From NCBI RefSeq assembly GCF_001424485.1, contig NZ_LMQC01000012.1:705012-769011 (forward strand): a stretch of 64,000 nucleotides of DNA, written 5' to 3'. Numbering within the stretch: the stretch's first letter is position 1; every line of letters begins with the position of its first letter. The notes beneath the pieces were generated by a model. It searched no databases. It was given only the letters and a program-made list of their open reading frames with translations, and had not been told where the DNA came from. The DNA is from Modestobacter sp. Leaf380. Lineage in GTDB: Bacteria; Actinomycetota; Actinomycetes; Mycobacteriales; Geodermatophilaceae. This document shows positions 18,332 to 56,748 of this stretch, piece after piece. Made by a program: the position numbers and the translations under genes.

Positions 18332-19581
18332 CCCGCACTCCCGGTACCCGCTCGGAGCTCGCCCGCCCGCCGCTGGCCGCGCTGCTGCCCACCCTCCTGG
18401 TGGTCGCCGGCAGCGTGGCCTGGCGGCGGGGCGACGTCTTCTCCGGCGGTGTCGACCCCGTCGTCGCCGCCAAGGCACTGGTCAGCCTGGCCGCGCTCGT
18501 CCTGGCCTGGCGGCTGGACTGCTCGGGCCGGCCCGGACGACGGGTCGGCACCGGCACCCTGTGGGTCCTCGCGGTCCTCCTCGTGGCCTCCGTGCTCGGT
18601 GCCGCCGAGCACGGCACGCTGGTCGCGGGAGCCGTCGTCGCCGTCCGGGTCGCGATCATGGCCGTCACCGTGCGGCTGCTGCTGCGCGCGGTGGGCGCCA
18701 CAGCGCTGCTCACCGCGGTGGTCTGGGCCTGCGGCATCGTCGGCGGCGTCGCCGCGCTGACCGGCCTGGCGACCTGGACCGGCGGACGGCTCTTCGGGGG
18801 CCTGCCCCCGCTGAACCCCAACGAGATCGCCCTGCTGGCCGGGGTCGTCGTCATCGGCGCCGCCTGGCCGACCCTGCTGGGCCGCGGCCGCCCACGCCAC
18901 GCCGTGGTCTTCCTCGTCGCCGCGGGCGTCCTGTGGCTGACGGGGTCCCGCACCTCGCTGCTCGTCGTGCTCCTGGCGGTCGGCGTGGGCGCGCTGCGGC
19001 TGCGCCGCCCCCAGGTCGGCCTGGTCGCCGGCGCCGGGCTCGCGGTCACCGCGGGCGCCCTCCTCATCGCCTCCACCAGTGCCGTCAGCTCCTTCGTCGA
19101 CCGCACCGACGCCTCCGGCAACAGCACCCTGGGTTCCCGGTTCATCGCCTGGGAGGCGGCGCTGGACTGGGCCGACTCGACCTGGCAGTGGGCCTTCGGG
19201 GCCGGTCTCTCGGTGAAGCTCATCCCGGTCGCCGGCCAGTGGTGGAACGAGCAGCTGCTCGACAGCAGCTGGGTCTCGGCGTTCGTGCAGGCCGGTGTCG
19301 TCGGTGTGCTGGCTGCAGCCGCGTGGGTCGTCGCGGCCGCCCGCGGTCTGCGGCACCTCGAGGCGGCAGCCTGGCCGGCCGCCGCGGGGCTGCTGTTCTT
19401 CGTGTGCGGTCGCAGCCTGCTCGAGAGCGGCCTCCTCGACGCCACGCCCGCCCTGCTGGTCCTGCTGACCGTGTCCTTCGCCGGCGAGCGCGGCACCCGG
19501 GGGCTCCCGGTGGCCGACCCGCCCCCGGCGGCCGGGTCACCTGCGCCCGCGGACCCCGTCCTGGTGGGCTCCCGTGGCTGA
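18328..19581 (+). CDS. O-antigen polymerase/ligase-like membrane protein (Wzy module 1)
   Basis: 417 residues with about ten to eleven hydrophobic segments. The GTG at 18328 overlaps the upstream TGA by 4 bp. The Wzy/WaaL signature is in the second half: LNPNEIALLAGVVVI, WLTGSRTSLLVVLLAV, then a periplasmic loop with TLGSRFIAWEAALDW. Such proteins either polymerise lipid-linked repeat units or ligate glycan to an acceptor outside the membrane; sequence alone does not separate the two. Being between a Wzz-like protein and a glycosyltransferase favours the polymerase role. It overlaps the following glycosyltransferase by 8 bp. Confidence 0.85.
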   Translation: MTRTPGTRSELARPPLAALLPTLLVVAGSVAWRRGDVFSGGVDPVVAAKALVSLAALVLAWRLDCSGRPGRRVGTGTLWVLAVLLVASVLGAAEHGTLVAGAVVAVRVAIMAVTVRLLLRAVGATALLTAVVWACGIVGGVAALTGLATWTGGRLFGGLPPLNPNEIALLAGVVVIGAAWPTLLGRGRPRHAVVFLVAAGVLWLTGSRTSLLVVLLAVGVGALRLRRPQVGLVAGAGLAVTAGALLIASTSAVSSFVDRTDASGNSTLGSRFIAWEAALDWADSTWQWAFGAGLSVKLIPVAGQWWNEQLLDSSWVSAFVQAGVVGVLAAAAWVVAAARGLRHLEAAAWPAAAGLLFFVCGRSLLESGLLDATPALLVLLTVSFAGERGTRGLPVADPPPAAGSPAPADPVLVGSRG

Positions 19582-20728
19582 CCGTGCACCGCGCGTCCTG
19601 GTCGCGCACCCCTCCTCGGACCTGTACGGGTCGGACCTCCAGCTGGTCGAGAGCGTCCGGGCCCTCGTCGGCGCCGGGTGGACGGTCACGGTCACCCTGC
19701 CGGCGGACGGGCCACTGACCCCTCCGCTGACCGCAGCCGGGGCGCGCGTCGTCGCGCTCCCGGTCCCGGTGCTCCGCAAGGCCCTGCTGCGCCCCCGCGG
19801 GGCGCTGACGCTGGTGCGGGACGTGCTGCGCAGCGTCGTCCCCTGCTGGCGGCTGCTCCGCTCCACCCGGCCGGACGCCGTCTACGTCAACACCGTCACC
19901 GTCCCCTCGTGGCTGCCCCTCGCCCGCGCGCTCGGGGTGCCCGCGCTGGTCCACGTGCACGAAGCGGAGTCCGACCTGCCCCGCTGGCAGGCCTGGGTCC
20001 TCAACGCGCCACTGCTGCTCGCCACGAGCGTGGTGGTCAACAGCAACGCGGCACGGGACGCCCTGCTCGGGGCGCTCCCCCGGCTCGGGGCCCGGACGAC
20101 CGTGGTCCACAACGGCGTCCCGGGCCCGCCCGCCGAGCCCCGCGTGGAGCCCCGCGGTACGGGACCGGCGACGCTGGTGCTCGTCGGCCGGCTCGCCCCG
20201 CGCAAGGGCAGCGACGTCGCTGTCGAGGCCACCGCCCTGCTGCGGGCCCGGGGGCTGGACGTCGACCTCGAGCTGCACGGCACGGTCTTCCCCGGCTACG
20301 AGTGGTTCGAGGACGAGCTGCGCGAGCGCGCCGCCCGCCCTGACCTCGCCGGACACGTGCGGCTGGCCGGCTACACCTCGCCGACCTGGCCGGTGCTCGA
20401 CCGTGCGGACGTCGTGCTGGTGCCCTCCCGCGCGGAGCCGTTCGGCAACGTGGCGGTGGAGGGGCAGCTGGCCCGGCGCCCCGTCGTGGCCAGCGCCGTC
20501 CAGGGCCTGCGGGAGATCGTGACCGACCGACGGACCGGCCGGTCGGTCCCCCCGGGGGACCCCACCGCGCTCGCCGACGCGGTGGAGGAGCTCCTGCGCG
20601 ACCCCGACAGCGCTGCGGCCCTGGCCGACGCCGGCCGCGACTCCGCCGTCGCCCGGTTCGGCATCGGCCAGTACCAGGAGTCGATCGTCGCCCGGGTGGC
20701 CGCGGTCGCGGGACGCCGGCGCCGCTGA
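19574..20728 (+). CDS. family 4 glycosyltransferase (GT-B)
   Basis: 384 residues, GTG 19574 inside the end of the previous gene. The N-terminal Rossmann half begins VLVAHPSSDLYGSDLQLVES, a glycine-rich acceptor-loop region. The C-terminal half carries the donor-binding segment LVLVGRLAPRKGSDVAVEA, then RAEPFGNVAVEG, where the two Glu of the E-x7-E motif contact the nucleotide sugar. The enzyme would act on the cytoplasmic face and use an NDP-sugar to extend a lipid-linked glycan. Donor and linkage are unknown. It is the last gene of the Wzz-Wzy-GT operon and is convergent with the flippase gene 10 bp away. Confidence 0.9.
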   Translation: MADRAPRVLVAHPSSDLYGSDLQLVESVRALVGAGWTVTVTLPADGPLTPPLTAAGARVVALPVPVLRKALLRPRGALTLVRDVLRSVVPCWRLLRSTRPDAVYVNTVTVPSWLPLARALGVPALVHVHEAESDLPRWQAWVLNAPLLLATSVVVNSNAARDALLGALPRLGARTTVVHNGVPGPPAEPRVEPRGTGPATLVLVGRLAPRKGSDVAVEATALLRARGLDVDLELHGTVFPGYEWFEDELRERAARPDLAGHVRLAGYTSPTWPVLDRADVVLVPSRAEPFGNVAVEGQLARRPVVASAVQGLREIVTDRRTGRSVPPGDPTALADAVEELLRDPDSAAALADAGRDSAVARFGIGQYQESIVARVAAVAGRRRR

Positions 20729-20738
20729 GCCCGTCCGC

Positions 20739-22016
20739 TCAGGACGTCGGCACGGCCGGGCGCGACCGCGGGACCAGCACCCGCCAGCGCACGGCGGCGG
20801 CTGCACCCACCGGGCCCAGGGCCAGGACCGCTGGTGCCCACTCGGCGGCCGTGGGGCGCAGGACCACGAGCACCAGGACCCCGAGCAGCGCAGCCATCTC
20901 CACGGTCCGCCAACCCAGCACGGCGCGCTGCGCGCCGTGCACCGAGGCCAGCCCCGCGTAGGGCAGCAGCAGGGCGCCGGTGACGGCGTAGGCGCCCCAC
21001 CCGGCCACCGAGGCCGACGGGACCGGGTAGTCCCCGTCGGTCAGCAGCGGCCCCAGCCACGGCGTGGCGAGGACGGTGACGCCCACGACCACGGCGACCA
21101 GACCGGCGGCTGCCAGGGCGGCCCGGTCCGCCCGCCGGAGCAGCTCGCCCGGCGGCCGGTGGCGGGCCGCGGCGAACCACGGCAGCAGGAAGGACCCCAG
21201 GCCGGCCACGAGCACGAGGGTGGGCGAGGTCAGCACACGGGCCGCCTCCACGGGTCCGTACGCCGCCGCCCCCGCGGCGCCGATGACCACCAGCCGGACC
21301 AGGGTGAGGGTCAGCGGGCGCACCGTCTGCCCGGCCGCCCGCCAGACGCCGAAGGCGAGCACCACGCGCAGGTGGGCACCGCGCCACGGCCGGCCCGGCC
21401 GCTCCCCACCGGGCAGGAGCAGCACCGCCAGGGCGCAGGAGACCAGCTGGCCCACGGCCAGGGCCGCGAACAGGTCCACCACCTCCAGCGGGGACCGCGA
21501 GGCGGACACCGCGAGGACGCCGAGTGCGACGGCGGCGCCCCCCAGGTCGACGGCCGGGAGCTTCCAGTAGCCCCCGGTCGCCATCATCAGCCGCCGCAGC
21601 ACGTCCTCGACCACGAAGGCGAGGGTGGCCAGGCCCACCCAGGCCGCGGCCGCCAGCCCGCCCCACCCGGCCCAGGCCGCGAGGACGGCCCCGAGCAGGC
21701 CGGTCCCCACGGCGACGCCCGTCGCGAGCCGGTGCAGCGCCGCCCGGACCCCGGGGTCGTGCCGGTCGAGCACGGTGAGCGAGTCACCGACGAGACCGCT
21801 GCACACCGCGGTCACCAGGACCACGGCGCCATAACCCAGCGAGAACGCGGCCAGTCCGGCGGCACCGAGCTCACGCGCGGCGGCCACCTGCAGCACGAGG
21901 CCGGAGACGGCGAGGGTGCCCTGGGCCACCAACGCCCCCACCAGCCGCCGCCGGTCCCGTGGCGGGGCCGGCCGCGCCGGGCCGGTGGGAGGCGGACTGG
22001 TGGGGGGCTGCGTCAC
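20739..22016 (-). CDS. Wzx-like polysaccharide flippase
   Basis: 425 residues, start GTG 22016, with about twelve hydrophobic segments and a Pro-rich cytoplasmic N-terminus. The first helix LVGALVAQGTLAVSGLVLQV followed by AARELGAAGLAAFSLGYGAV has the pattern of oligosaccharide flippases (MOP superfamily), where an early A-R-x-LG-x-x-x-[FY] element is common. It would move undecaprenyl-linked repeat units outward. Similarity is weaker than for the flippases at 43.8 and 61.9 kb, but the context (polymerase, chain-length protein and glycosyltransferase just upstream, convergent) supports it. Starts about 100 bp downstream of the giant protein gene on the same strand. Confidence 0.75.
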   Translation of the reverse strand: MTQPPTSPPPTGPARPAPPRDRRRLVGALVAQGTLAVSGLVLQVAAARELGAAGLAAFSLGYGAVVLVTAVCSGLVGDSLTVLDRHDPGVRAALHRLATGVAVGTGLLGAVLAAWAGWGGLAAAAWVGLATLAFVVEDVLRRLMMATGGYWKLPAVDLGGAAVALGVLAVSASRSPLEVVDLFAALAVGQLVSCALAVLLLPGGERPGRPWRGAHLRVVLAFGVWRAAGQTVRPLTLTLVRLVVIGAAGAAAYGPVEAARVLTSPTLVLVAGLGSFLLPWFAAARHRPPGELLRRADRAALAAAGLVAVVVGVTVLATPWLGPLLTDGDYPVPSASVAGWGAYAVTGALLLPYAGLASVHGAQRAVLGWRTVEMAALLGVLVLVVLRPTAAEWAPAVLALGPVGAAAAVRWRVLVPRSRPAVPTS

Positions 22017-22119: not shown

Positions 22120-25100
22120 TCACGGCGCGGCGGTGACCGTCAGCGGTCCGAAGCGGACCGCGGTCCCGGCGGTCGAGGACCCGGTCAGGTAGGCGGCGAG
22201 GCCCACCCCGCCGGCCGCCTGCAGGGCGGCGGTGTCGTCGGTGCGGGTCAGCGACGGGGTGGCGGGCCGGTCGGCGCCGTCGGCCCACACGGACGCCGTG
22301 ACCGTCGTCGTCCCGGTGCCCGCGACCTGCAGCCGGACCTGGAGCAGCTGGCCGGCGGTGTGGCCGGTGGCCACGGTGACCTCGGCGCCCAGCAGGGCCT
22401 CGGTGGTGGTGCCGGACAACCGGGTGACCGCGGCCCGGACGGTGCCGTCGGTGAGGAAGCGGAGCCGCACCCGGTACTCCAGGTTGGTGTCCACCCGGCG
22501 GCCCGTCACGTAGGCGTAGGTCCCGCCGCCGGTGGGGGCCGAGGTCAGCCGCACCGACGTCGCCACGTCCACACCGGTGGCGGAGACGCCCCCGAGGTAC
22601 GTCCCGGTCAGGTTGCCGGCGGTGGGCAGGGCGAGCTGGGCGGCCCCGTCGGCCACGGACAGCCGGGTGCTGCCGTTGGCCGTGGTCCACGGTCCCCCGA
22701 CGTCCGCCGTCCCCAGGCCGGGGGCCGTGGTCCGGGTGAAGGCGTCGGAGGCGAGCACCCAGACCGCGGGCCGGGTCACGGTGACCTGGCGCTCGGTGGT
22801 CGCCGTGGCGCCCCGGTCGTCGGTCACCGTGAGCAGGACTCGGTACGTGCCGGGCCCGGAGTAGGTGTGCGTGACCTGCGCCCCGGTGGCGGTCCGCCCG
22901 TCACCGAGGTCCCAGGCCAGGCCCGCGACCGTGCCGTCGGGGTCGGCCGAGGCCGAGCCGTCCAGCTGCACGACCAGGTCCGCCGGCGTCGCCGTGAACG
23001 CCGCGACCGGCTCCCGGTTCGGGGGCTCGGTGGCCGTGACCGTGCGGGTCGCCGTGGCCGTGGCGCCGTCGTCGTCGGTCACCGTGAGGGTCACGGTGCG
23101 GTCACCGGGACGGGCGTAGACGTGCGTCGCGGTGGGTCCGGTCGCCGTGGTCCCGTCGCCGAAGTCCCACGCCCACGCGGTCAGCTGACCGTCGGCGTCG
23201 GTCGACGACCCGGCGTCGACGTCCAGCGACAGATCCGTCGTGGTGGCCGTGAACGCCGCCGCGGGGGCCTGGTTGGGCACGGTCTGCGCTGCCGCCCAGT
23301 GCGCGGAGACCTGCGTGGCGGACAGCACCGTCGGGTAGACGGCGACGTCGTCGACCCGGCCGGCGAACCAGGTGCCGATGCCGGACCCGCCACGGTCGCC
23401 GCCGACCCGCCACCAGCCGGTCATCGACCGGCCGACGGTGCGGGTGTCCGCGGCCACGGGACGGCCGTCGACGTAGAGCGCCGTGCCGCCCGCGCCGGAC
23501 GTCAGCACGACGTGGTGCCAGCGCCCGTCGTTGTAGGCCGACGGCGACGCCAGGGTCACCGTGGCGCCCAGGAACGTGCCGGCGGTGGCGGTGTAGCTCA
23601 GCCGCCCGTCGGTGCGCATGGACAGCACCCGGTCGGTGGTGGCCGACGTGCCGGACTGGGCGCTGCCGAAGCCGATGAGCTCGCCACCGCGGGTGGTCGT
23701 GGAGGCGAACCACAGCTCCTGGGAGGAGGTGGTGGGCGCCGGGCGCGACACCGTCGTCACCAGCCCGTCGTCGGACCCGTCGAGGGACAGCGCCGAGCCC
23801 GCGGCGCGGCCGGGGGTCTCGGTGCTGCCGGCCGCGCCGAGGGACGCGCCGCCGGTGAGCAGGCCCGTCCCGCCGTCACCGGTGGGCTGGTTGCCCGCCA
23901 CGCGGGTGCCGGAGGGCTCGTCCAGGCGCCAGGACAGCGACGGGGCGTCGGCGTGCACGGCAGCGCCGTAGGGGTCGGTGGGCGCCGAGGTCCACCGGCC
24001 GGGGGCACCCGCGGCGAGCACGTGGGCCCGGACCGTCGCCGTGGGCAGCACGGTCGGGTACACCGCGACCGCGTCGACCTGGCCGACCAGGTCGGTCCGG
24101 CCGACGTTCGGCCAGCTGCTGAGCGGCCCCCCGCCGACCTGCCAGAAGCCGTTGTAGGCAGCGCCGCTGGTCACCGAGGCGTCGGTGCCCACGAGGACGC
24201 CGTCCACCCACAGCGACATGCCGCCGCTGCCCAGGCTGCCGACGACGTGGTGCCAGGCACCGTCGTTGTAGGCCGCCTGGCCCGCGACGGTGCGGCGACT
24301 GCCGTTGTTGACGCCGAAGTGCACCCGGCCCGATGCGTCCAGGTAGACCTGCCGGTCGTAGCTGCCGTTGGCGCCGGTGGCGGAGTTCCCGAAGCCGGCC
24401 AGCCGGCCGCCGGTGGTCGAGGAGGTGGCGAACCACAGCTCCAGCGAGAAGGTCGAGGGCGCGGCCTTGGCGCCGGCGGCCACCCCGGCGACCATCCGGG
24501 AGGCGGTCGTGCCGTCGAGCCGGAAGGACCCGCTCGTGTCGCCGGCGATCGCGCCGGTCGGCTGGGCGGAGACACCGGCGGGGACGGTCAGCGGGGCACG
24601 CCCGGTGGCGTCACCGCTGGACCCCGCAGACAGCCACCCCAGCGGCCACGCCGACGTGGCGCCGTCGGCCACCGCCCGGTCGGTGTAGGCCGAGGGCAGC
24701 GGCTCGGCGCTGACGGTCCCCGTCGTCGCGGCGCTGCGCACGGTGTTGCCCCAGGCGTCCTGCGCCTGGACGACGTAGGAGTGGGTCGAGGAGGGGTCCA
24801 GACCGCGGTCGGTGAGGGCGACCGTGCGGGGTGCGTAGAACAGCGAGTCCACGACCTGGGTGTCCACCGGGGTCGGGTCGCCGTCGCGCAGCAGCGTGTA
24901 GGTCAGCGAGCGGTCGTCCCGGTCCGACGTCGTCGGCACGGTGACCGCCAGGGAACCGGCGCCACCGGCCGTCACTGTCGGGGCCGCGAGGCTCCCGGCG
25001 ACCGGGCCCACCCGGTTGGGGGCCTTCGCCCGGACGGCGAACCGCACCAGGCCCTGCTGGCCCACGGAGTTGACGCGGGGGAACTCCCCGCCGTAGACGA

Positions 25101-26382
25101 CGTAGTCCGCGGTGCCGGTGACGCTCCAGCCGGCCTGTCCCTGACCGGTGAAGGTGCCGGGGGTGATGGTCGGGTACCAGTCCATGACCGAGGGGGCAGG
25201 GGCGCCGCGGAACGCGGTGTTGCCCCAGGTGCCGTTGCCCACCGTGCCGGTCGTCGCCTGCGTGTAGGCGATGCCGAACCGGCTCACCCGGGGGCTCACC
25301 TCGGGGAAGCCGCCGATGTTGCTGCAGACGTGCGGGTGGCCGGCGACGTACACCGCGCCGGCGACCGGGAAGGTCGAGTAGGTGTCACCGCGGCAGTCCG
25401 CGTCCCACACCAGGGCGCCGCCGGCCGCGGTCACCGCGAGCACGCCCTCGGCGTTGCCCGGGCCGGAGAAGTCGTAGGCCCCGACCCACACGGTGCTGCC
25501 GTCGGTGGACAGGCTGGTGACGCCGGAGTCGTCGCCCTGGTTGGTGATCCGCTGGCCGAGCGCGAAGGGCCGGACGTCGCCGGTGACCGCGTCGACCGCG
25601 CCGACGCCGCTGGTTGCCGTCCCGTTGATCGAGCCGAACCGCCCGCCGACGACGACCTGGTCGCCGGTGAGCACCAGGCTGCTGACGGCGGCGCTGGTGG
25701 CGGTGCTGCCGTCCCGGTTCCGCCCGGGGCCGGTGGCCGGCGCCCACGGCAGCAGCGCGCCGGCGGCGCTGAAGGCCGCCAGCCGCAGCCGGGACGCGCT
25801 GCCGACGGCGTTGAAGTCGCCGCCGACGTAGACGGTGTCCGCCGTCGCCACGAGGGCCCGCACCGAGGCAGTCACCGCGGGCGCGAAGCCCGGGACCAGC
25901 GCACCGGTGACCGGGTCCAGGGCCGCGACGCGGCGGCGGGTCTCGCCGTCCACGGTGGTGAAGTCGCCGCCGACGTAGACCCGGGACCCGTCCGGGGAGG
26001 CGGTGACGACGAGCGCCTGGGCGTTGAGCGCCGGCGCCCAGCCGGGCAGCAGCGCCCCGGTGCGGATGTCGTAGGCGAGCAGGTTGGCCCGCGGGGTGAG
26101 GTTGGTGCCGGCCGCGGCACCGGCCGGGCGGGCGTTGGCGAACCGGCCCGCGACGTAGACGGTGTCCCCCACGACCACCTGGGACCACACGACCCCGTCG
26201 ACCTGGACCGTCGGCAGCGCGTCCGCGGCCACGGTGGTGGCCGGCGCCGGGCTCGTGGTCGCGAGGACCGGGGCGTCGTCGGCAGCCTGCGCGGGAGCCC
26301 CCGGCAGGGTGCCGACGACGAGGCCCGCCACGAGGGCGCTGAGCACGCGGGTCAGCCGGCGCGGCCGAGGAGAGGGGTTCAC
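22120..26382 (-). CDS. giant secreted protein 1: beta-propeller, two LamG, two PKD, C-terminal domain
   Basis: 1420 residues from GTG 26382, chosen because a clean signal peptide follows (LTRVLSALVAGLVVGTLPGAPAQA is split by cleavage near residue 33). GTG 26457 is an alternative. Residues about 35-480 are a repeat domain with VYVAGRF, VYVGGDF, VVVGGRF and similar strands, suggesting a beta-propeller, with a conserved AGHPHVC segment. An FN3-like stretch is next. Two LamG-like domains (about 610-830 and 840-1075) each contain the YNDG.WHHVV pattern. Two PKD domains (about 1080-1250; AWAWDFGDGTTATG, LAWDLGDGRTATG) precede a C-terminal beta-rich domain of about 165 residues. Likely a cell-surface or extracellular carbohydrate-binding protein. 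It is a paralogue of the next gene. Confidence 0.85.
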   Translation of the reverse strand: MNPSPRPRRLTRVLSALVAGLVVGTLPGAPAQAADDAPVLATTSPAPATTVAADALPTVQVDGVVWSQVVVGDTVYVAGRFANARPAGAAAGTNLTPRANLLAYDIRTGALLPGWAPALNAQALVVTASPDGSRVYVGGDFTTVDGETRRRVAALDPVTGALVPGFAPAVTASVRALVATADTVYVGGDFNAVGSASRLRLAAFSAAGALLPWAPATGPGRNRDGSTATSAAVSSLVLTGDQVVVGGRFGSINGTATSGVGAVDAVTGDVRPFALGQRITNQGDDSGVTSLSTDGSTVWVGAYDFSGPGNAEGVLAVTAAGGALVWDADCRGDTYSTFPVAGAVYVAGHPHVCSNIGGFPEVSPRVSRFGIAYTQATTGTVGNGTWGNTAFRGAPAPSVMDWYPTITPGTFTGQGQAGWSVTGTADYVVYGGEFPRVNSVGQQGLVRFAVRAKAPNRVGPVAGSLAAPTVTAGGAGSLAVTVPTTSDRDDRSLTYTLLRDGDPTPVDTQVVDSLFYAPRTVALTDRGLDPSSTHSYVVQAQDAWGNTVRSAATTGTVSAEPLPSAYTDRAVADGATSAWPLGWLSAGSSGDATGRAPLTVPAGVSAQPTGAIAGDTSGSFRLDGTTASRMVAGVAAGAKAAPSTFSLELWFATSSTTGGRLAGFGNSATGANGSYDRQVYLDASGRVHFGVNNGSRRTVAGQAAYNDGAWHHVVGSLGSGGMSLWVDGVLVGTDASVTSGAAYNGFWQVGGGPLSSWPNVGRTDLVGQVDAVAVYPTVLPTATVRAHVLAAGAPGRWTSAPTDPYGAAVHADAPSLSWRLDEPSGTRVAGNQPTGDGGTGLLTGGASLGAAGSTETPGRAAGSALSLDGSDDGLVTTVSRPAPTTSSQELWFASTTTRGGELIGFGSAQSGTSATTDRVLSMRTDGRLSYTATAGTFLGATVTLASPSAYNDGRWHHVVLTSGAGGTALYVDGRPVAADTRTVGRSMTGWWRVGGDRGGSGIGTWFAGRVDDVAVYPTVLSATQVSAHWAAAQTVPNQAPAAAFTATTTDLSLDVDAGSSTDADGQLTAWAWDFGDGTTATGPTATHVYARPGDRTVTLTVTDDDGATATATRTVTATEPPNREPVAAFTATPADLVVQLDGSASADPDGTVAGLAWDLGDGRTATGAQVTHTYSGPGTYRVLLTVTDDRGATATTERQVTVTRPAVWVLASDAFTRTTAPGLGTADVGGPWTTANGSTRLSVADGAAQLALPTAGNLTGTYLGGVSATGVDVATSVRLTSAPTGGGTYAYVTGRRVDTNLEYRVRLRFLTDGTVRAAVTRLSGTTTEALLGAEVTVATGHTAGQLLQVRLQVAGTGTTTVTASVWADGADRPATPSLTRTDDTAALQAAGGVGLAAYLTGSSTAGTAVRFGPLTVTAAP

Positions 26383-26654
26383 AGTTCTGGTCACCGTCCG
26401 TGAAGGAGCACGAGGGCTGAGAGCAGCCACCTGGGAGCCTGTCCTGCGAGCGGTCACTCTGGGTAGTACCCGAGCGGGGGATCTCGGGGCGCGGTGTCCC
26501 CCGTACGGGCGCGCGCGGACGCGTCGTCCGTGCCGGATGACGCTGCGTCACGCCGACGGCGTGGGGGCGTACGCACGGACCGGGCGGCGCCGACCGTGAG
26601 GTCGACGCCGCCCGGTCCGGGTGGGTCAGGAGCGGGGTGCCCGCCGGGCGCCGG
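26383..26654. other. intergenic region between the two giant genes
   Basis: 272 bp. It contains the terminator hairpin of giant gene 2 (26577-26618). The remaining 26383-26570 must hold the promoter of giant gene 1, if it has its own, but I see no convincing -10/-35 pair. No small gene is supported. Confidence 0.5.
26577..26618 (-). terminator. long GC hairpin after giant protein 2
   Basis: GGACCGGGCGGCG pairs perfectly with CGCCGCCCGGTCC (13 bp), and inside it CGACC-GTGA-GGTCG adds five more pairs after one mismatch. It lies 37 bp beyond the stop of the 1905-residue gene, the expected place for its terminator, so giant gene 1 likely has its own promoter. Confidence 0.75.
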
Positions 26655-29600
26655 TCAGGGCACGTCGGTGACGGTCAGGGCCCCGAACCGGGCCACGGTC
26701 CCGCTGGTGGCCGAGCCGGACAGGTACGCCGTGAGGGCCACCCCGCCGGGGGCCTGCAGGCTCGCGGTCGTGTCGGTCCGGGTGAGCGTCGGCGTGGTCG
26801 GGGCCGAGGCCCCCTCGGCCCAGACGGAACCGCTGACGGTCGTCGTCCCGGTGCCGGTCACGGTGAGGGCGACCTGGAGCACCTGCCCGGCGGTGTAGCG
26901 GGTCGGGAGGGTGACCTCGTTGCCGAGGACCACCTCCGTGGCCGAACCCGACAGGCGCGTGACGGCGACGCCGACAGCTCCGTTGGACTGGAACCGCAGC
27001 CGCAGGCGGTACTCCTGGTTGAGCCCCACCCGGCGTCCGGTCACGTAGACCGTGGTGCCGCCCCCGGTGACCGCACCCGACAGGCTGACCGTCGTGCGAA
27101 GGTCCACCGCGGAGGACGAGACGCCCGCCAGGAAGGCCCCGGTCTGGTTCGTCGGGCTGGTCAGCGCGAGCTGGGCCGTCCCCGGGGTGACCGACAGGCG
27201 GGCCGCCCCGAAGCTCGGGGTCCAGGCGCCGCCGGTGTCGGCGGTGCCCAGTGCGCCCGTGACGGTGCGCCCGAAGGCGTCCGCTGCGCGCACCGTCGGC
27301 GAGGCCGGCGCCACGGTCACCGACCGGGTGGTCGAGGCGGTGGCGCCCCGGTCGTCGGTGACGGTGAGGGTCACCGTGTAGGTGCCCGGCGTCGCGTAGG
27401 TGTGCGTCGCCGTCGCCCCGGTGGTCGACTGCCCGTCCCCGAAGGTCCAGGACCACGCGGCCACGGTGCCGTCCGCGTCGACCGAGGCCCGGCCGTCCAC
27501 GGAGACCGTGAGGGCGGAACCGGACACGGTCATGCCCGCCGTCGGCGCCTGGTTGGGCGGGTCGGTGGCGACCACGTCACGCGTGGTCGTCGCCGTCGCG
27601 CCGGCGTCGTCGGTGACCGTGAGGGTCACGGTGCGGGTGCCGGCGGTCGCGTAGGTGTGCGACGCCGTGGCCCCGGTGGCGGTCGCGCCGTCCCCGAAGG
27701 CCCAGGCCCAGGAGACGATGCGGCCGTCCGCGTCGGTCGAGGACCGGCCGTCGACGCTGACCGAGCGGTCGGTCACGGTGGCCGAGGCCACCGCCGTCGG
27801 CGGGGTGTTCGCCGGCGGGGCCGGCGCGACGGTCACCGAGGTGGTCGTCGAGCTGGTCGCCCCCTCGTCGTCGGTCACCGTCAGGCCCACGGTGTAGGTG
27901 CCCGCGGCCGTGTAGGTGTGCGAGGTGGTCTCCCCGGTACCGGTGCCGCCGTCCCCGAAGGCCCAGGCCCAGGAGGCGATGGTGCCGTCGGCATCGGCGG
28001 AGCCCCGGCCGTCGGCGGCGACGACCAGGTCGGTCGCCGTCACCCGGGCCAGCGCCGTCGGCGCCTGGTTGGGCGCGGCCACCGTGACGCTGCGGGTGGT
28101 GGAGGCGGTGCCGCCGTCGTCGTCGGTCACGGTCAGCCGGACGACGTAGGTCCCGTCACCGGCGTAGGTGTGGGCGGCCGAGACGCCGGACCCCGAGGAC
28201 CCGTCACCGAACTCCCAGGTCCACGACACGACCGAGCCGTCGGGGTCGGTCGACCCACTGGCGTCGGCGACCGTGTCCAGACCCGTGGCGGTCACCGTGG
28301 CCGACGCCGTCGGCAGCTGGTTGGGCGGCGGGAGGACGGTGGTCACCGTCTGGGTCGTGCTGCTCTCCTGGCCCTTGGCGTCGGTGACGGTCAGCGTGAC
28401 CACGTGGTCCCCGGCGGTCGGGTACCGGTGGGTGACCGGGGTGCCGGTCGCCGTGCTGCCGTCGCCGAAGTCCCAGCTGTACGCCGCGACCGGCCCCTCG
28501 ACGTCGGAGGACGTCGAGGCGTCGAAGGTGGCGCTGAGACCGTCCACGGTGGAGGTGAAGCGGGCCACCGGGGTGGCGTCGGGGCCCAGGCCCGAGGCGG
28601 TGAAGTGCGCGGCCACCTCGGCGGCGGCGAGCTGCCGGTCGTAGACGGCGACCTCGTCGATCGTCGCGGCGACGTAGGGGTCACCGGACCAGCTGTTGTC
28701 CCCGCCGACCCGCCAGTACCCGGTGTAGACCTGCGACTCCGTGTTCGTCGAGGACCCCACGAGGGCGCCGTCGACGTAGAGCCGCATGCCCTCGGCACCG
28801 ATGGAGGCGGTGACCTGGTGCCACGTGCCGTCGTTGTAGGCCGCCGGGCTGGTGACCGTGTTCAGGTTCCCGTTGTAGGTGCCGAAGGTCAGCTGCCCGG
28901 AGGGCTCGAGGTAGACGTGCCGGTCGTAGCCGCCGCTGCGGCCGGACTGCTGGGTGCCGAAGCCGATCAGCTTGCCGCCCCGCGTCGTGGTGGAGGAGAA
29001 CCACAGCTCGGTGGTGAAGACGGTCGGGTTGGTGACCGCCGTGCGGGAGTACAGGCCGTCGTCGACACCGTCGAAGGTCACCGCGGTGTTGGCCGTGGTG
29101 CCCGCCAGCTGCGGGCCGGCGACGGCCAGGGTCGGGTCGCCGGTGTACGTGCCGCGGCCACCGGCCGGGCCCGCAGCGGCGGCCGAGGAGCCCGACGCCT
29201 CGTCCATCCGCCAGAACAGCGACGGGGCCGAGTCGTAGACGGCGGCACCGTAGGCGTCCGCCGGACGGGTCGGGGTGGTGGAGGCCTGGGCCGCGGCGGT
29301 CCAGTGCGCGGCGACCTGCTGCGCGGTCAGGGCACGGTCGTACACGGCGGCCTCGTCGAGCAGGCCGTCGAAGGCCGCGGTGTTCGCGCCGCCCCAGATG
29401 TTGTCCGAGCCCAGCCGCCAGTAGCCGTCGTAGCCGGCGACCGAGGTGTTGCCGTTGGTCTGCACCAGCGCGCCGTCGACGTAGAGCGCCATGCCGGTGG
29501 ACCCGAAGGTCGCCACGACGTGGTGCCAGTCGCCGTCGTTGTAGGCGCGCGGCGTGTCGATCACGGCCTCACCCGGCGCCCAGACGCCGAACCGCAGGCG

Positions 29601-32372
29601 GCCGTCGGCGAACATGTAGACGAACCGGTCGTAGTTGTTGCTCCAGGCGTCCTGGGTGCTGCCGAACCCGATGAGCCGCCCGCCGTTGCTCGAGGTGGTG
29701 TTGAACCAGGTCTCAGCGGTGAAGGTGGTCGGGTCGTCGGTGCGCTGGGAGGACACGACGTAGCCGCCGCGACCGTCCAGGTCGATGGCCCGCGAGTCGG
29801 TGCCGGGCAGGGTCACGCCGGACTGGGCCCGGGAGACCTCGCCGGTGTAGGTGCCGACGGCACCGGAGCCGGAGGCGTCGACCGCGCTGGTGGCGTTCGC
29901 CGCGTCGTCCAGGCGCCAGTACGTCGTGGGCTCGTCCGCTGCCACGGCGGCGCCGTAGACGTCGGTCGGGGCCGGGGTGCTGCTCAGCGTGCGGCCCGAG
30001 GCCGTGTAGTGGGCACGCACCTGGGCGGTGCCCAGCGCGGTCGGGTAGAAGGCGGCCTGCGACAGCTGGCCGCTGAACTCAGCGGGCACGCCCCAGCCAC
30101 CGAGGTTGCCGGTGCCGAACTGCAGCCAGCCGCGGTAGTCCTGGCCGGCCGTGACCCGCCGGTCGGAGCCGACCTTGACGCCGTCGACGTAGAGGACCTG
30201 CCCCTGGTCCGACATCGTCGCCACCGCGTGGTGCCACTGCCCGTCGTTCACCGGGCGGGAGGTGGTGAGGGTCTCGATCGCACCGGTGTAGACGCCGAAG
30301 ACGAGCTTGCCGCTGCCGTCGAGGAAGAGGTGGCGGTCGTAGGCGGAGTTGCCGCCGGTCGTGGAGTTGCCGAAGCCGGCCAGGCGGCCGGTCGTGGCCG
30401 TCGTGGAGAACCAGAGCTCGACGCTGAAGGTGTCCGGGACCTTCGTGGCGGCGCCGGTGGCACCGACGGTGCCCCGGGCCGCGGCGGTGCCGTCACCGGA
30501 CAGCGAGGTGGTGCCCAGCGCGGAACCCGGCGCCGGGGTGAGCCCACCGGCCGAGACGACGTCGGACATGCCCACGTAGTCGTAGCTGGTGGCACCGGTC
30601 TGTGCGTCCAGCGGCCAGTAGCCGGTGGCGCCGTCGGACAGCACCGTCTGCGCGTAGGGGGACAGGGCGGCCGACGAGGCGCGCACGGTGACGCTGCCCC
30701 GGGTGGCCGTGTTCCCGGCCGGGTCGGTGACCGTCACGCGGTACGTGTAGCTGGTGCCGGCGACGACGGCGCGGTCGACGAAGCCCATGGTCGGGCGGTT
30801 CCACCAGCTGGAGCTGCCGGTCGTCTCGAAGACGGGCGTGGTGGGCTTGTCCGCGCGGACGACCTTGTAGCTGAGGTTGGCGTTGTCGTTGTCGTAGGCG
30901 GCGGTCCAGGTGACCCGGACCGAGCCCGCGGCAACGGACACCGCGGTGGGGGTGATGCCGACGTCGGAGACGGGGCCGACCTTGTTGGGGGCGGCGTTGG
31001 GCATCGCGAAGCGGACGAGGCCCTGCTGGGCGGTGCCACCGGCGCGGGTGAACTCACCGCCGTAGAGCAGGTAGTCCCCGGAGGCCGCGACGTCCCAGCC
31101 GGCCTGGTAGGAGCCGCTGACCGAGCCGACGTTCAGGTCGGGGTACCAGTGCAGCAGCGAGGAGGAGGGCTGACCGTAGAAGGAGCCCCAGGTGTTGGTG
31201 CCCTGGGCGGCCAGGTCGACGGCGACGGCGAACTTGCTGACCCGCGGGTCCTGCTCGGGGTAGCCGCCGATGGACTCGCAGACGTGCGGGTGCCCGGCCA
31301 GGTACAGCGCGCCGCGGAACGCGACGCTGGCGTAGGTGTCGCCGTGGCAGTCGTTGACCCAGACCAGGTTGCCGCCGTCGGCGGTGGCCGCGAAGGAGCC
31401 CTCGAGGTTGCCGGGGCCGTAGTAGTCGTAGCCGGTGCCGTAGACGGTGGTGCCGTCGGTGGACAGGCTGTAGACCGCGGAGTTGACGCCCTGGTTGGTG
31501 ATCTGGGTGCCCATCGCGAAGGCCCGGCTCGCGCCGGTGGTCGCGTCGAGGGCGCCGACGCCCGAGGCCGGGTTGCCGTTCAACGTGTAGAAGTGGCCCG
31601 AGACGACGACCTGGCTCCCACCGTTGGTGACCACGAGGGACTTGACCTCGTTGCTGGTCTGGGCGTTGCGGGTCGGGTTGTCGGGCAGGCTGTTGCCCGA
31701 CGTCGGGCCGACCCCGGGCACGGGGGCCCAGGGCAGCAGCGCACCCGCCGTGGTGACGGCGGCCAGCCGGCTGCGGCTGACCCCGCCCACGGCGGAGACG
31801 GTGCCGCCGAGGTAGACCGTGGACGCCGTCGCCCCGATGGCCTTGACCACGCCGGAGACGCTGGGCGCGAAGGCGGTCAGCGCGCCGGTGGCGGTGTCGA
31901 AGGCGGCGATCCGGTTGCGGGTGGCCGTGCCGACCCGGGTGAACTCGCCGCCGACGTAGAGGGTCTTGCCGTCGGGGCTGGTGGCCAGGCTCCAGGCCTG
32001 CGCGTTCAGGTTGGGGTTGAACGAGCCGATGAGCACACCGGTCGTCAGGTCGTAGGCCAGCAGGTTGTTGCGCGAGACCTCGTTGGTCCCCGCGGCAGCG
32101 CCTGCCGGGCGGGCAGTGCTGAAGCGGCCGGCGACGTAGACGGTGTTCCCGACCACGGCCTGGTCCCAGACGACGCCGTTGATCTGCGCGGTCGGCAGCG
32201 CGTCCGCGGTCACCGTCGTCGGCGGGGTCTTCCCCGTCGTCGCGTCGGCGACCGGCGCGGAGTCGGCCCGGGCGGGCGGCGCACCACCGGCGAGGACGCC
32301 GACGGAGAGCGCCACGGCCAGGAAGCCCGCGGCGGCGGCGCGGAGTGCGCCGGGGAGTGCAGTGGTGCGCAT
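26655..32372 (-). CDS. giant secreted protein 2: beta-propeller, three LamG, five PKD, C-terminal domain
   Basis: 1905 residues from ATG 32372 (AGAGACCC just upstream); a signal peptide of about 36 residues ends PPARA. Residues about 40-500 are the same propeller-like domain as in giant protein 1 (VYVAGRF, LYVGGEF), with AGHPHVC conserved. An FN3-like part and three LamG-like domains (about 610-820, 830-1050, 1055-1265; each with YNDG or NDGQ then WH) follow. Five PKD domains (about 1270-1735) carry WDFGDG, WEFGDG or WAFGDG cores. The last 165 residues match the C-terminal domain of the paralogue. No sortase motif or C-terminal helix is visible, so it is probably secreted and bound non-covalently to surface glycan. 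Confidence 0.87.
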   Translation of the reverse strand: MRTTALPGALRAAAAGFLAVALSVGVLAGGAPPARADSAPVADATTGKTPPTTVTADALPTAQINGVVWDQAVVGNTVYVAGRFSTARPAGAAAGTNEVSRNNLLAYDLTTGVLIGSFNPNLNAQAWSLATSPDGKTLYVGGEFTRVGTATRNRIAAFDTATGALTAFAPSVSGVVKAIGATASTVYLGGTVSAVGGVSRSRLAAVTTAGALLPWAPVPGVGPTSGNSLPDNPTRNAQTSNEVKSLVVTNGGSQVVVSGHFYTLNGNPASGVGALDATTGASRAFAMGTQITNQGVNSAVYSLSTDGTTVYGTGYDYYGPGNLEGSFAATADGGNLVWVNDCHGDTYASVAFRGALYLAGHPHVCESIGGYPEQDPRVSKFAVAVDLAAQGTNTWGSFYGQPSSSLLHWYPDLNVGSVSGSYQAGWDVAASGDYLLYGGEFTRAGGTAQQGLVRFAMPNAAPNKVGPVSDVGITPTAVSVAAGSVRVTWTAAYDNDNANLSYKVVRADKPTTPVFETTGSSSWWNRPTMGFVDRAVVAGTSYTYRVTVTDPAGNTATRGSVTVRASSAALSPYAQTVLSDGATGYWPLDAQTGATSYDYVGMSDVVSAGGLTPAPGSALGTTSLSGDGTAAARGTVGATGAATKVPDTFSVELWFSTTATTGRLAGFGNSTTGGNSAYDRHLFLDGSGKLVFGVYTGAIETLTTSRPVNDGQWHHAVATMSDQGQVLYVDGVKVGSDRRVTAGQDYRGWLQFGTGNLGGWGVPAEFSGQLSQAAFYPTALGTAQVRAHYTASGRTLSSTPAPTDVYGAAVAADEPTTYWRLDDAANATSAVDASGSGAVGTYTGEVSRAQSGVTLPGTDSRAIDLDGRGGYVVSSQRTDDPTTFTAETWFNTTSSNGGRLIGFGSTQDAWSNNYDRFVYMFADGRLRFGVWAPGEAVIDTPRAYNDGDWHHVVATFGSTGMALYVDGALVQTNGNTSVAGYDGYWRLGSDNIWGGANTAAFDGLLDEAAVYDRALTAQQVAAHWTAAAQASTTPTRPADAYGAAVYDSAPSLFWRMDEASGSSAAAAGPAGGRGTYTGDPTLAVAGPQLAGTTANTAVTFDGVDDGLYSRTAVTNPTVFTTELWFSSTTTRGGKLIGFGTQQSGRSGGYDRHVYLEPSGQLTFGTYNGNLNTVTSPAAYNDGTWHQVTASIGAEGMRLYVDGALVGSSTNTESQVYTGYWRVGGDNSWSGDPYVAATIDEVAVYDRQLAAAEVAAHFTASGLGPDATPVARFTSTVDGLSATFDASTSSDVEGPVAAYSWDFGDGSTATGTPVTHRYPTAGDHVVTLTVTDAKGQESSTTQTVTTVLPPPNQLPTASATVTATGLDTVADASGSTDPDGSVVSWTWEFGDGSSGSGVSAAHTYAGDGTYVVRLTVTDDDGGTASTTRSVTVAAPNQAPTALARVTATDLVVAADGRGSADADGTIASWAWAFGDGGTGTGETTSHTYTAAGTYTVGLTVTDDEGATSSTTTSVTVAPAPPANTPPTAVASATVTDRSVSVDGRSSTDADGRIVSWAWAFGDGATATGATASHTYATAGTRTVTLTVTDDAGATATTTRDVVATDPPNQAPTAGMTVSGSALTVSVDGRASVDADGTVAAWSWTFGDGQSTTGATATHTYATPGTYTVTLTVTDDRGATASTTRSVTVAPASPTVRAADAFGRTVTGALGTADTGGAWTPSFGAARLSVTPGTAQLALTSPTNQTGAFLAGVSSSAVDLRTTVSLSGAVTGGGTTVYVTGRRVGLNQEYRLRLRFQSNGAVGVAVTRLSGSATEVVLGNEVTLPTRYTAGQVLQVALTVTGTGTTTVSGSVWAEGASAPTTPTLTRTDTTASLQAPGGVALTAYLSGSATSGTVARFGALTVTDVP

Positions 32373-32614: not shown

Positions 32615-33253
32615 TCAGCCGACGGCACCCCGGAACACCAGGTAGGGCGCTCCCGCCTGGTAGCCGACCTGGACCGTGACGTCGTCCCGGTCGTCCTCGG
32701 GGACGTAGAACACGTAACTCCCCGTGACTGTCGCTCCGGGGTCGACCGTGCCGGCGAGCGGGGCGGCCTGGGAGTCGTCCAGCAGCGTGGCCGGGGCCAG
32801 GTCCGACCCGGTGTAGGCCTCGACCACGGCGGCGTCGAAGGACACCGGCGCCGCGGTCCCGTTGGTCAGCTCCACGGTCACCAGCAGCGCGGGGCCGTCG
32901 ATGTTGCCGATGCCCTCGCCGTCGCCCTGCACGGCCTCCACCGAGACCAACCGGCCGGTGACCCCGTCGCCGACGGCGGCCGGGTCACCCAGCCCGACGG
33001 CGGTGAGGGCCGGGGGCAGGTCGGTCGCCTCGGCCGTCGGGCCCGAGGGCTCCGGCGTCGGCGGGTTCGTGGGCGGCGGCTCGGGGCTCGAGGACACCGA
33101 GAACGACGAGGTCGGAGCCGCCGACCCGGTCTCGTCCCCGCCACCGAGCGAGGTGAGCAGCACGGCGAGGGCCGCCAGGACGACGACCGTCCCGGCCGCG
33201 CCCAGGACCAACAGCCGGCGGGAGGGACGGCGCGGGGCCGCGGGCGAGCTCAT
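32615..33253 (-). CDS. membrane-anchored DUF4352-like protein
   Basis: 212 residues from ATG 33253, which overlaps the upstream stop (ATGA). A basic N-terminus and one hydrophobic helix (LLVLGAAGTVVVLAALAVLL, about 13-32) act as signal anchor. A Ser/Pro/Thr linker spans about 40-80. The outer domain (about 85-212; GDGVTGRLVSVEAVQG, LLVTVELTNGTAAPV, ATVTGSYVFYVPED) has the beta-sandwich pattern of DUF4352/Telomere-protein-2-like lipoproteins. Function unknown; it is the third gene of an operon with a glycosyltransferase and a CDP-alcohol phosphotransferase, so it may be an extracytoplasmic factor for the same polymer. Confidence 0.8.
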   Translation of the reverse strand: MSSPAAPRRPSRRLLVLGAAGTVVVLAALAVLLTSLGGGDETGSAAPTSSFSVSSSPEPPPTNPPTPEPSGPTAEATDLPPALTAVGLGDPAAVGDGVTGRLVSVEAVQGDGEGIGNIDGPALLVTVELTNGTAAPVSFDAAVVEAYTGSDLAPATLLDDSQAAPLAGTVDPGATVTGSYVFYVPEDDRDDVTVQVGYQAGAPYLVFRGAVG

Positions 33254-34035
33254 GTAGACGTCCTGTCCCGACGGCCGAGGGCCGCCATCTCGTTGCGCCA
33301 CCGGGGTAGCGCGAGCAGCAGGTACCCGGTGGTGCCGAGTGCCAGGAGCCCGTAGGCCCCCAGGAAGAGCGGGGTGGCGCCGAGCAGCACGAACACCAGG
33401 CACAGCACGCCGTAGTCGGTGGGCGCGACGAGCAGCGAGCGCAGCACGCTGGGCCGCTCGCCGGTACCGGCACGGGCAGCGCGGGTCTTGGCCCCGTGCT
33501 GGGCCCGCAGCGCCTCGTTGAGCAGGGTCAGCGAGAAGTGCGTGACGGCGACGACGGCGAAACCGAGCGGCACCAGGAGCCAGGCCGGGTCCAGCGAGCC
33601 GGTCCGGTAGAGCCCGATCAGCACGCACAAGTGGACGGCGACCACCTTGGCCGAGTCGACGGCGTGGTCCAGCCACTCCCCCGCCGGTGAGCCACCGCCG
33701 CGCAGCCGGGCCAGCTGGCCGTCCGCGGAGTCCAGGGCGTACCCCAGGACGAGGAGGGCGGCGACCAGCACACCGGTCGCCCAGTCGTGCGGTGCCAGAG
33801 CGACGACGGCGAGCCCGGCAGCGGTGCAGACCGCGCTCAGCCCGGTGACGGCGTCAGGGGTGAGGCCCCGGTGGAAGGCCACCGCGGCCAGGACCCGGCC
33901 GAAGGGCCGGTTCACGAAGCGGGAGTACGCCGGGGCACCCTGGGCGCCCTTCTGGGCGCCGGCCAGGCGGCGGACGGTGTCGGCCACGCTCTCCCCGGCG
34001 GCCGGACGGGCCGGCGCCGGTGCGGTCGCGGTCAC
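33250..34035 (-). CDS. CDP-alcohol phosphotransferase
   Basis: 261-residue integral membrane enzyme with the complete CDP-alcohol phosphatidyltransferase motif, written D-S-A-D-G-Q-L-A-R, eight residues, G-E-W-L-D-H-A-V-D. It would transfer a phospho-alcohol from a CDP-alcohol to an acceptor hydroxyl with loss of CMP. It has about six hydrophobic segments and an N-terminal extension of some 40 residues (RFVNRPFGRVLAAVAFHRG before the first helix), as in archaetidyl/inositol-phosphate synthase relatives. GTG 34035 overlaps the upstream stop by 4 bp. Context with a glycosyltransferase suggests a polyol-phosphate decoration or a special lipid. Standard phospholipid synthesis is possible too. Confidence 0.88.
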   Translation of the reverse strand: MTATAPAPARPAAGESVADTVRRLAGAQKGAQGAPAYSRFVNRPFGRVLAAVAFHRGLTPDAVTGLSAVCTAAGLAVVALAPHDWATGVLVAALLVLGYALDSADGQLARLRGGGSPAGEWLDHAVDSAKVVAVHLCVLIGLYRTGSLDPAWLLVPLGFAVVAVTHFSLTLLNEALRAQHGAKTRAARAGTGERPSVLRSLLVAPTDYGVLCLVFVLLGATPLFLGAYGLLALGTTGYLLLALPRWRNEMAALGRRDRTST

Positions 34036-35246
34036 GCGACCACCCGCAGTCCCGGGCGCTCGACCGGGGTCACGGGCGCGGTCGACGTCGGCGCGACGTC
34101 GGGGCCGGGCGCCGTGGGGTGGCCCCGACGACGGCCACGCGGGCGGCGCGCCGGGCTGGCGGTGGTCAGCCGGACGGCCAGCTGCTCGTAGGCGGCGGCG
34201 ACGTCGTCCCAGTCGTAGGAGGCGGCCCGCTCCCGGGCGAGGACGCCGCGGCGACGGGCGTGCTCCGGGTCGGCCTCGGTCCGCTCGACCAGGGCCGGCA
34301 CGTCCTGCGCACCGAGGAAGTAGCGACCGGCCGTGCCGAGCACCTCGCGGTTGAAGGAGACGTCGTGGGCCAGCACCGTGGCGCCGGCCCCGATCGCCCG
34401 CAGCAGCGAGGGGTTGGTGCCCCCGACCGAGTGGCCGTGCAGGTAGGAGGTGGCGTGCCGGTACAGGGTGTCGAGCAGGTCCTGGTCCCAGACGCCCCCG
34501 AGGAACCGGACGCGCTCGTCACCGAGCGAGTGGACCAGCGCGGTGTACTCGTCGGCGTAGGGGGCCGAGCCCACCACGACCAGGGGCTGGGTCGCCGAGC
34601 TGGCGGTGTAGCCCTCGACGATCTCGGCGACGTGGTTCTCCGGCTCGAACCGGGCCACGACCAGGTGGTAGCCGCGCTCGGTGAGGTCGAGCTCGGCCAG
34701 TCGGCCGGCCGGGGGGTCGATGACCGGCGCCCCGTAGGTGATCAGGTCGGTCGAGGCGCCGAACTCCTGGGTGTAGTAGTCGGCGATGCCCTGGGCGTCG
34801 GCGATGAGCGCGTCGGACCAGCGCACGGCGAGCGCCTCGGCCGCGCGGTAGTACCGCCGGCCGGCCCCGCTCCACTTCGTCCGCTTCCACTCCAGGCCGT
34901 CCACGTGCGTCGCGACCGGCACCCGGGCTGCGCGGATGACCGGCAGCAGCGGGGCATTGGCCGCGTTGAACACGAACGCGGCGTCGGGACGGTGGGCCAC
35001 CAGGTGGCCGACCGACAGCGCCGTGTGCGAGAGCGTCTCCAGGGCGCGCTTGCGTGCCGCGGGCAGGTGCACGAGCTGCATGCCCAGGTGCGTGTCCGGC
35101 GGCGCGGACGCCCCCGGGGTGGTCCGGCAGTAGACGACCACCTCGTGCCCGCGCTCGACGAGCCTGCGCCCGACCTCTTCCACGCAGGTCTCGAATCCTC
35201 CGTACGCCGCGGGCACACCACGGGTCCCCACCAGTGCGATGCGCAC
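34032..35246 (-). CDS. DUF1972 family glycosyltransferase
   Basis: 404 residues. The GTG at 35246 has GAGGAGG 6 nt upstream and gives the standard beginning VRIALVGTRGVPAAYGGFET, the DUF1972 hallmark. The N-terminal domain (about 1-170) has THVDGLEWKRTKWS. The C-terminal GT-B half has VVARFEPENHVAEIVEG and GHSVGGTNPSLLRAIGAGA for donor binding. Characterised members include rhamnosyl- and other deoxyhexosyltransferases in capsule and S-layer glycan pathways. Donor unknown here. The basic/Pro-rich tail (about 365-404) is extra. First gene of a three-gene overlapping operon. Confidence 0.9.
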   Translation of the reverse strand: MRIALVGTRGVPAAYGGFETCVEEVGRRLVERGHEVVVYCRTTPGASAPPDTHLGMQLVHLPAARKRALETLSHTALSVGHLVAHRPDAAFVFNAANAPLLPVIRAARVPVATHVDGLEWKRTKWSGAGRRYYRAAEALAVRWSDALIADAQGIADYYTQEFGASTDLITYGAPVIDPPAGRLAELDLTERGYHLVVARFEPENHVAEIVEGYTASSATQPLVVVGSAPYADEYTALVHSLGDERVRFLGGVWDQDLLDTLYRHATSYLHGHSVGGTNPSLLRAIGAGATVLAHDVSFNREVLGTAGRYFLGAQDVPALVERTEADPEHARRRGVLARERAASYDWDDVAAAYEQLAVRLTTASPARRPRGRRRGHPTAPGPDVAPTSTAPVTPVERPGLRVVA

Positions 35247-56706: not shown

Positions 56707-56748
56707 GGTCAGTCCTCGTTCTCGTTGGTCGGGCTGCGTCACTCGACG

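Follow-up and report, generated by a model that had tools for sequence, protein, structure and literature searches.

Tandem beta-propeller proteins with LamG, PKD and lectin-like modules in an actinobacterial exopolysaccharide locus are candidate matrix proteins

The window, a stretch of 64,000 nucleotides from Modestobacter sp. Leaf380, contains a Wzx/Wzy-type exopolysaccharide (EPS) locus in which two long genes, here called A and B, lie in tandem. Seven co-directional genes on the minus strand encode the EPS initiating enzyme, a polyprenyl-phosphate sugar phosphotransferase (35421..37064; PF02397 E 1e-66, TIGR03025 over its cut-off), a GT4/DUF1972 glycosyltransferase (34032..35285), a CDP-alcohol phosphotransferase (33250..34035; Pfam PF01066), a DUF4352/DUF5067 protein (32615..33253), B, A and a Wzx-like flippase (20739..22016). 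Two pairs of neighbours share 4 bases each: the GT4/DUF1972 gene with the CDP-alcohol phosphotransferase gene, and the latter with the DUF4352 gene. Facing this run, the plus strand carries genes for a Wzz chain-length determinant (16658..18331; PF02706 E 7e-10), a Wzy-like polymerase (18331..19581, start approximate) and a GT4 glycosyltransferase found by Pfam (19574..20728). An earlier note on this DNA had placed A and B between Wzx/Wzy genes and sugar transferases. The EPS locus itself was borne out by Wzz, the initiating enzyme and the glycosyltransferases, whereas the Wzx and Wzy names are given by inference: each protein has 10 hydrophobic segments, and neither a Pfam match (both) nor an NCBIfam match (Wzx-like protein) was obtained.

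The DUF4352 protein is a conserved neighbour with an N-terminal hydrophobic segment, a Pro-rich linker and a DUF4352 domain recognised by Pfam; its one weak PDB match, to VirB10 (E 0.047), was taken as chance. The NCBIfam model nearest to the GT4/DUF1972 enzyme was the Cps2T rhamnosyltransferase, far under cut-off. In the CDP-alcohol phosphotransferase the columns DxxDGxxAR...GxxxDxxxD, which we take to be the usual catalytic motif, were invariant in 11 aligned members. Its best solved match was a PIP synthase fusion (PIP synthase/AF2299, E 2.7e-6), but it scored under the NCBIfam cut-offs of CDP-alcohol phosphotransferases of named activity.

Gene A (22120..26457, minus strand) is an open reading frame of 1445 codons counted from the first start, which gives a protein of at most 1445 residues whose true start is uncertain; the 1420 residues first proposed imply a later start. 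Gene B (26655..32372, minus strand) encodes the 1905 residues proposed for it if translation begins at Met 32372, and its frame is open to 32426 (1923 codons). Codon-position GC backed the coding status of both frames, and two tandem, same-strand genes of secreted type were confirmed. A simple hydrophobicity scan found a single hydrophobic segment in each protein, N-terminal and signal-peptide-like, in agreement with the shared signal peptide of the earlier note. It is followed by a propeller domain, LamG and PKD modules and a C-terminal lectin-like domain. Pfam recognised two Laminin_G_3 and two PKD_4 stretches in A and three and five in B; local HMMs gave identical counts, and these are the module numbers originally read. 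The AGHPHVC segment is likewise present in both. The propeller domains of A and B were 57% identical and the C-terminal domains 61%, and each of these domains had two matches in the own genome (4.76 Mb), all of them in A and B. The C-terminal domain is shared as claimed, with a length of about 216 residues in place of about 165. The closest named relatives of the window belong to Klenkia (Geodermatophilaceae; propeller identity 83 to 85%). NCBIfam matches of A and B were discarded, being far under cut-off for four of five families and also under it for LapB_rpt_80.

The propeller domain is about 415 residues long in both proteins and covers residues 74-485 of A (25003..26238, minus strand) and, by HMM match, residues 70-485 of B (30972..32219, minus strand), which is homologous to the modelled domain of A. 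An AlphaFold2 model of window positions 24979-26307, made from a 28-sequence input, reached a mean pLDDT of 86.6 and a pTM of 0.87. The domain was modelled as a seven-bladed beta-propeller, with seven four-stranded blades counted from the DSSP strand list that was also used to place residues. By model and fold search, the VxVGGxF repeats noticed earlier are the blade strands of this predicted propeller. The VIA matches listed were mostly WD40 rings, such as WDR5 (Z ~31, 10% identity), and the top Foldseek matches were eight-bladed designs. At the sequence level, Rax2 (PF12768) matched 28 of 28 propeller sequences and DUF5122 (PF17164) 26 of 28, with E up to 0.01. B exceeded the Rax2 gathering cut-off (32.8 vs 28.8) and the A propeller fell under it (19.5); DUF5122 scores of 20.5 and 21.7 were under the cut-off of 27 for both. 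Matches to these two beta-propeller families span a small part of the present domain. PQQ, Kelch or WD40 matches were weak and appeared in 1 to 3 of 28 members, and a sequence search of the PDB gave two short matches. Beta-propellers are a common scaffold, and a shared fold by itself shows no function; the WD40 matches, like the lectin matches described below, were taken as fold evidence only.

Blade 6 of A carries the signature C355-x-G-D ... H374-x-H376-x-C378 (25324..25395, minus strand; model positions 305-328), read from alignment columns. The alignment comprised 128 rows from 125 distinct proteins; ten partial or distant rows were omitted, and three copies of window A and one other duplicate were included. 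Both His of the HxH and the Asp were present in 128/128 rows, and H324, H326, D308, E408, W394 and Q391 (model numbering) were among the residues invariant throughout. The Cys pair was retained in 126/128 rows and lost jointly in two Modestobacter loci, L079 and L085, which keep the HxH. Since the strand register sets both Cys opposite each other across the blade-6 hairpin, they probably form a disulfide. The strict C-x-G-[AD]...HxHxC pattern occurred in 7 of 15 distant propeller ORFs, all from one genus; the eight from other families were without it, although one distant protein of another family (L111) carries the signature in the alignment. The signature is therefore not phylum-wide.

Invariant residues of this kind could mark an enzyme that trims, oxidises or cleaves EPS, with HxH, Asp, Glu and Trp building a catalytic site or a metal site, and with LamG and lectin-like modules that serve as targeting CBMs. 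Lyases or hydrolases are common in EPS loci, and propeller-fold polysaccharide enzymes exist. We nevertheless regard an enzymatic role as unlikely. Neither A nor B had an enzyme family over a curated cut-off, the PQQ-propeller matches were weak (3 of 28 members, best E 0.0016), and the WD40 rings that head the structural matches are indecisive on function; moreover, the Cys pair beside the His, probably a disulfide, may account for part of the conservation. The earlier note had named a well-known enzyme family as the outcome that would speak against a scaffold or adhesin; structure prediction returned a beta-propeller fold, and no such family was matched beyond the weak PQQ, Kelch or WD40 hits.

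The C-terminal domain lies at 22123..22770 in A and 26658..27308 in B, both on the minus strand. A model of 216 residues from 58 sequences had a mean pLDDT of 97.5 and predicts a concanavalin-like beta-sandwich of the lectin/CBM type. The best fold match was CBM66 (4azz), with a VIA Z of 19.2 and 163 residues aligned at 2.2 A; L-type lectins, among them ERGIC-53 and legume lectins, reached VIA Z ~17 to 18. The predicted fold is the same as that of CBM66 and L-type lectins, but no solved chain in the PDB was matched by sequence at E 0.1. At E 0.01, 57 of 58 members had no Pfam match and one had a weak Big_15 match.

The architecture recurs in relatives. Among 93 propeller genes from 68 loci and the window, LamG was found in 90, PKD in 90 and the C-terminal domain in 84, with one copy in 35, two in 43 and three in 6; several genes without this domain were cut at contig ends or had poor ORF calls. 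A scan of the C-terminal 60 residues of these 93 proteins flagged no LPXTG-like motif. In a phylum-wide sample of 396 genomes, 59 (the window genome among them) had a propeller match at E 1e-3, which in most cases covered the domain incompletely. Six distant propeller proteins were scanned: two carried CBM96, one of these together with LamG, and another carried fn3 and a rhamnogalacturonan-lyase beta-sheet domain. These assortments suggest a constant propeller combined with outer modules that are exchanged. In a propeller tree (FastTree, midpoint-rooted), 9 of 39 same-locus pairs were mutual nearest relatives. In this tree the A-type and B-type genes of three Klenkia loci trace back to an ancestor that they share with 56 other loci, so the A/B duplication is old.

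The surroundings of propeller genes were surveyed in 69 loci from the best 80 of 521 relatives, mostly Geodermatophilaceae and mutually non-independent (Klenkia, Blastococcus, Modestobacter, Geodermatophilus, Trujillonella, Arthrobacter, Clavibacter, Cellulomonas, Mumia, plus MAGs). The neighbour HMMs were built from gene clusters of these loci and the window, so the counts for the 69 loci are in-sample. Within about 10 kb, 62 of the 69 loci had at least one of eight EPS families, DUF4352 not counted, and 55 had three or more. The initiating enzyme was found in 53 of these loci from the best 80 relatives, GT4/DUF1972 in 54, the CDP-alcohol phosphotransferase in 50, DUF4352 in 62, a second GT4 in 49, Wzx in 28 and Wzz in 26. 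In seven of the 69 no EPS family was recognised: two on short contigs (L046, L054), two from Geodermatophilus (L064, L065) and three from Arthrobacter (L090, L091, L102). The nearest recognised upstream gene was a same-strand DUF4352 gene in 40 of the 64 loci having one, the nearest recognised downstream gene was Wzx in 21 of 54 and a same-strand GT4 in 19 of 54, and two or more propeller ORFs were present in 24 of the 69, all again within the best 80 of 521 relatives. The left flank of the EPS locus is formed by glmU-prs-L25-pth in many Geodermatophilaceae (L044, L057 to L062 and others); in the same sample, L25 was seen in 40/69 loci and pth in 42/69. Klenkia taihuensis has a second propeller locus (L048) at a site of the glmU-prs-L25-pth type.

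Loci of Microbacteriaceae and of distant relatives fall almost wholly outside the sample from which the neighbour HMMs were built. At E 1e-60 the propeller domain was present in 67 of 249 Microbacteriaceae genomes and 28 of 85 genera. Twenty loci, one per genus from 20 genera, were hand-picked from the match lists, and 18 had at least one EPS family; two (L122, L127) had none. Their 20 kb stretches held DUF4352 in 17 loci, GT4 in 15, Wzz in 11, GT2 in 11, GT4/DUF1972 in 9, the CDP-alcohol phosphotransferase in 7, the initiating enzyme in 6, Wzx in 4 and Wzy in 1. The 20 control stretches, 18 of them hand-chosen shifts within the same genomes, gave GT4 2, GT2 1 and other families 0, as weak matches of 34 to 58 bits in two stretches. 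The family name was assigned from one locus (L119) that was 91% identical to a Clavibacter locus over 17.8 kb. Thirteen distant loci, also hand-picked, came from 12 of the 59 matched genomes, six from one genus. Counting matches to the initiating enzyme, the CDP-alcohol phosphotransferase, Wzz or Wzx, EPS families were near 9 of 13 distant propellers vs 1 of 13 controls, all hand-chosen shifts in the same genomes (Fisher p 0.004, loci non-independent). A weak GT4 match as the sole hit (L168, 36 bits) was not scored positive, and a CDP-alcohol phosphotransferase match in a control (49 bits) was. In two positive loci Wzz was the only match, which Pfam placed just under cut-off (L165) or over it (L169); the Wzz-like ORF of L163, which also carries the initiating enzyme, had no Pfam match.

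In 112 Geodermatophilaceae genomes we counted 362 initiating enzymes, which corresponds to roughly 0.015 for each 21 kb if genomes are taken to average 4.45 Mb; a binomial estimate was discarded because it presumes independent loci. Because of this base rate and the control stretches, the reading of the EPS linkage as chance or hotspot was set aside. The linkage of propeller genes to EPS loci holds strongly in several actinobacterial families, and the opposite outcome envisaged earlier, homologues mostly away from glycan loci, was not obtained. A and B might instead be adhesins for foreign surfaces or hosts, resident in a variable surface-polysaccharide island without contact to the EPS. Module numbers that differ between paralogues and species, and the low share of same-locus pairs that are mutual nearest relatives in the tree (9 of 39), would fit such adhesins, but the EPS association recurs in several families with the same neighbours, which a hotspot alone does not predict, and we find a role of this kind improbable.

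Co-occurrence was scored in the same 112 genomes with cut-offs of E < 1e-60 for the propeller, 1e-40 for the CDP-alcohol phosphotransferase, 1e-10 for DUF4352 and 1e-60 for GT4/DUF1972. The association was near-perfect: propeller, CDP-alcohol phosphotransferase and DUF4352 were all present in 66 genomes, all absent from 45, and in one the propeller occurred by itself. The two window-type partners were thus found in 66 of 67 propeller genomes and 0 of 45 others. At E 1e-3 the propeller was detected in 79 of 112 genomes, 67 of which passed E < 1e-60; the 12 with distant relatives only (between 1e-3 and 1e-60) were scored as lacking it. In the discordant genome (G057) GT4/DUF1972 is present twice, on separate contigs; one copy begins at contig base 9, so an assembly gap is a possible cause. 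GT4/DUF1972 was found in 66 of 67 propeller genomes, missing in G034 (76% complete); G055 carried it too, as did G045 by a weak match. The propeller genes of G040 lie on contigs other than those of its three partner genes. The initiating sugar phosphotransferase was present in 111 of 112 genomes though 45 were without a strong propeller domain, which indicates that EPS export is generally independent of the propeller. The co-occurrence partly reflects gain and loss of one linked block, the module being one operon. Of all features, the link to the CDP-alcohol phosphotransferase has the poorest explanation and offers the most promising lead. It could mean that A and B are cargo, surface glycoproteins that carry the locus glycan through a linkage or lipid anchor made by this enzyme, as their co-occurrence with it, GT4 and DUF4352 and their Ser- and Thr-rich appearance would allow, but we hold this very doubtful, as no oligosaccharyltransferase family was found among the Pfam-scanned window proteins (several of which matched nothing) and the predicted lectin-like modules point to binding.

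We consider it fairly likely, by analogy, that A and B are secreted and act as extracellular-matrix proteins for the EPS that their own locus produces, and we gave the enzyme, plain-adhesin and cargo readings lower weight. As relatives of A and B stand in the EPS clusters of many soil actinobacteria, proteins of this type probably bind and organise the polysaccharide coat, and the predicted lectin-like folds favour a scaffold or adhesin role with it. Secretion, glycan binding, the ligand of each module and a role in biofilm or adhesion are inferred from genes and models. A and B would be exported via the signal peptide. The constant N-terminal seven-bladed propeller would act as a dock for self EPS, for the membrane-anchored DUF4352 protein encoded just upstream, or for both. 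The LamG, PKD and lectin-like C-terminal modules would form a variable stalk that extends outward and binds glycans, whether these belong to the matrix, to other cells or to a surface. Gene duplicates and shifting module numbers may adjust reach and specificity. LamG and PKD domains also mediate protein contacts, which weighs against the glycan-binding reading.

The earlier note had known of no described system with this layout. RbmC of V. cholerae, whose gene lies between the two VPS clusters, is an adhesin that combines a beta-propeller and sugar-binding folds; the propeller of RbmC and Bap1 binds VPS, their other domains bind surfaces, and the two are thought to be duplicates (PMC10102183). 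RbmC is a functional parallel that qualifies the statement of the note. Like RbmC and Bap1, A and B would be secreted modular matrix adhesins that combine a beta-propeller with putative sugar-binding folds, as judged for A and B from genes and models, and they are encoded in or beside an EPS biosynthesis locus. However, the propeller of RbmC and Bap1 is eight-bladed and that of A was modelled with seven blades; their partner domains are beta-prisms, in contrast to LamG, PKD and an unnamed lectin-like domain here; and self-EPS binding, demonstrated there, is proposed for A and B. The likeness is one of layout and proposed function, put forward as an analogy. Pfam matches of A and B included no beta-prism, with fold searches covering the propeller and the C-terminal domain, and no RbmC or Bap1 chain was among the 50 VIA matches listed for the propeller, which by the tool's own note excludes nothing. 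For the family itself, full-text literature searches found no description, a weak absence given that subscription papers lie mostly outside the texts searched.

Beyond a matrix role of A and B, we tentatively propose that the operon of GT4, CDP-alcohol phosphotransferase, DUF4352 and propeller/lectin protein could be a system, so far undescribed, by which Actinomycetota attach EPS. A phospho-alcohol group would be added by the phosphotransferase to the glycan or to the lipid that anchors it, the propeller with its invariant Asp/His/His/Glu would read this group, the DUF4352 membrane protein would hold the complex at the cell, and the swappable lectin-like modules would face outward. If such a system exists, the wider propeller family, whose distant members also tend to lie in EPS loci, would be a marker of these loci across much of the phylum. 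To our knowledge, matrix proteins that tie polysaccharide to cells and surfaces are understood in detail for few bacteria. If the matrix reading is right, soil and desert actinobacteria (Geodermatophilaceae, Microbacteriaceae and some Arthrobacter) would gain a candidate matrix protein, a lectin-like domain family that has no name yet, and a module of four genes whose near all-or-none distribution makes it testable by single deletions. Many proteins so far described by their PKD or LamG domains alone would also receive a likely context.

Three initiating sugar phosphotransferases (PF02397) lie within about 24 kb of the window (35421-37064, 40066-41592 and 57985-59478), accompanied by an epimerase (54814-55839) and a nucleotidyltransferase (55888-56742); together they possibly represent two adjacent surface-polysaccharide loci. 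The neighbouring sugar locus has two GH26-like matches (46338-47603 and 59767-61482), the second just under cut-off. A LytR-CpsA-Psr family protein (38872-40044) is a candidate for glycan-to-cell-wall attachment, and 5319-7640 encodes a predicted right-handed beta-helix (NosD-like) protein of 773 aa.
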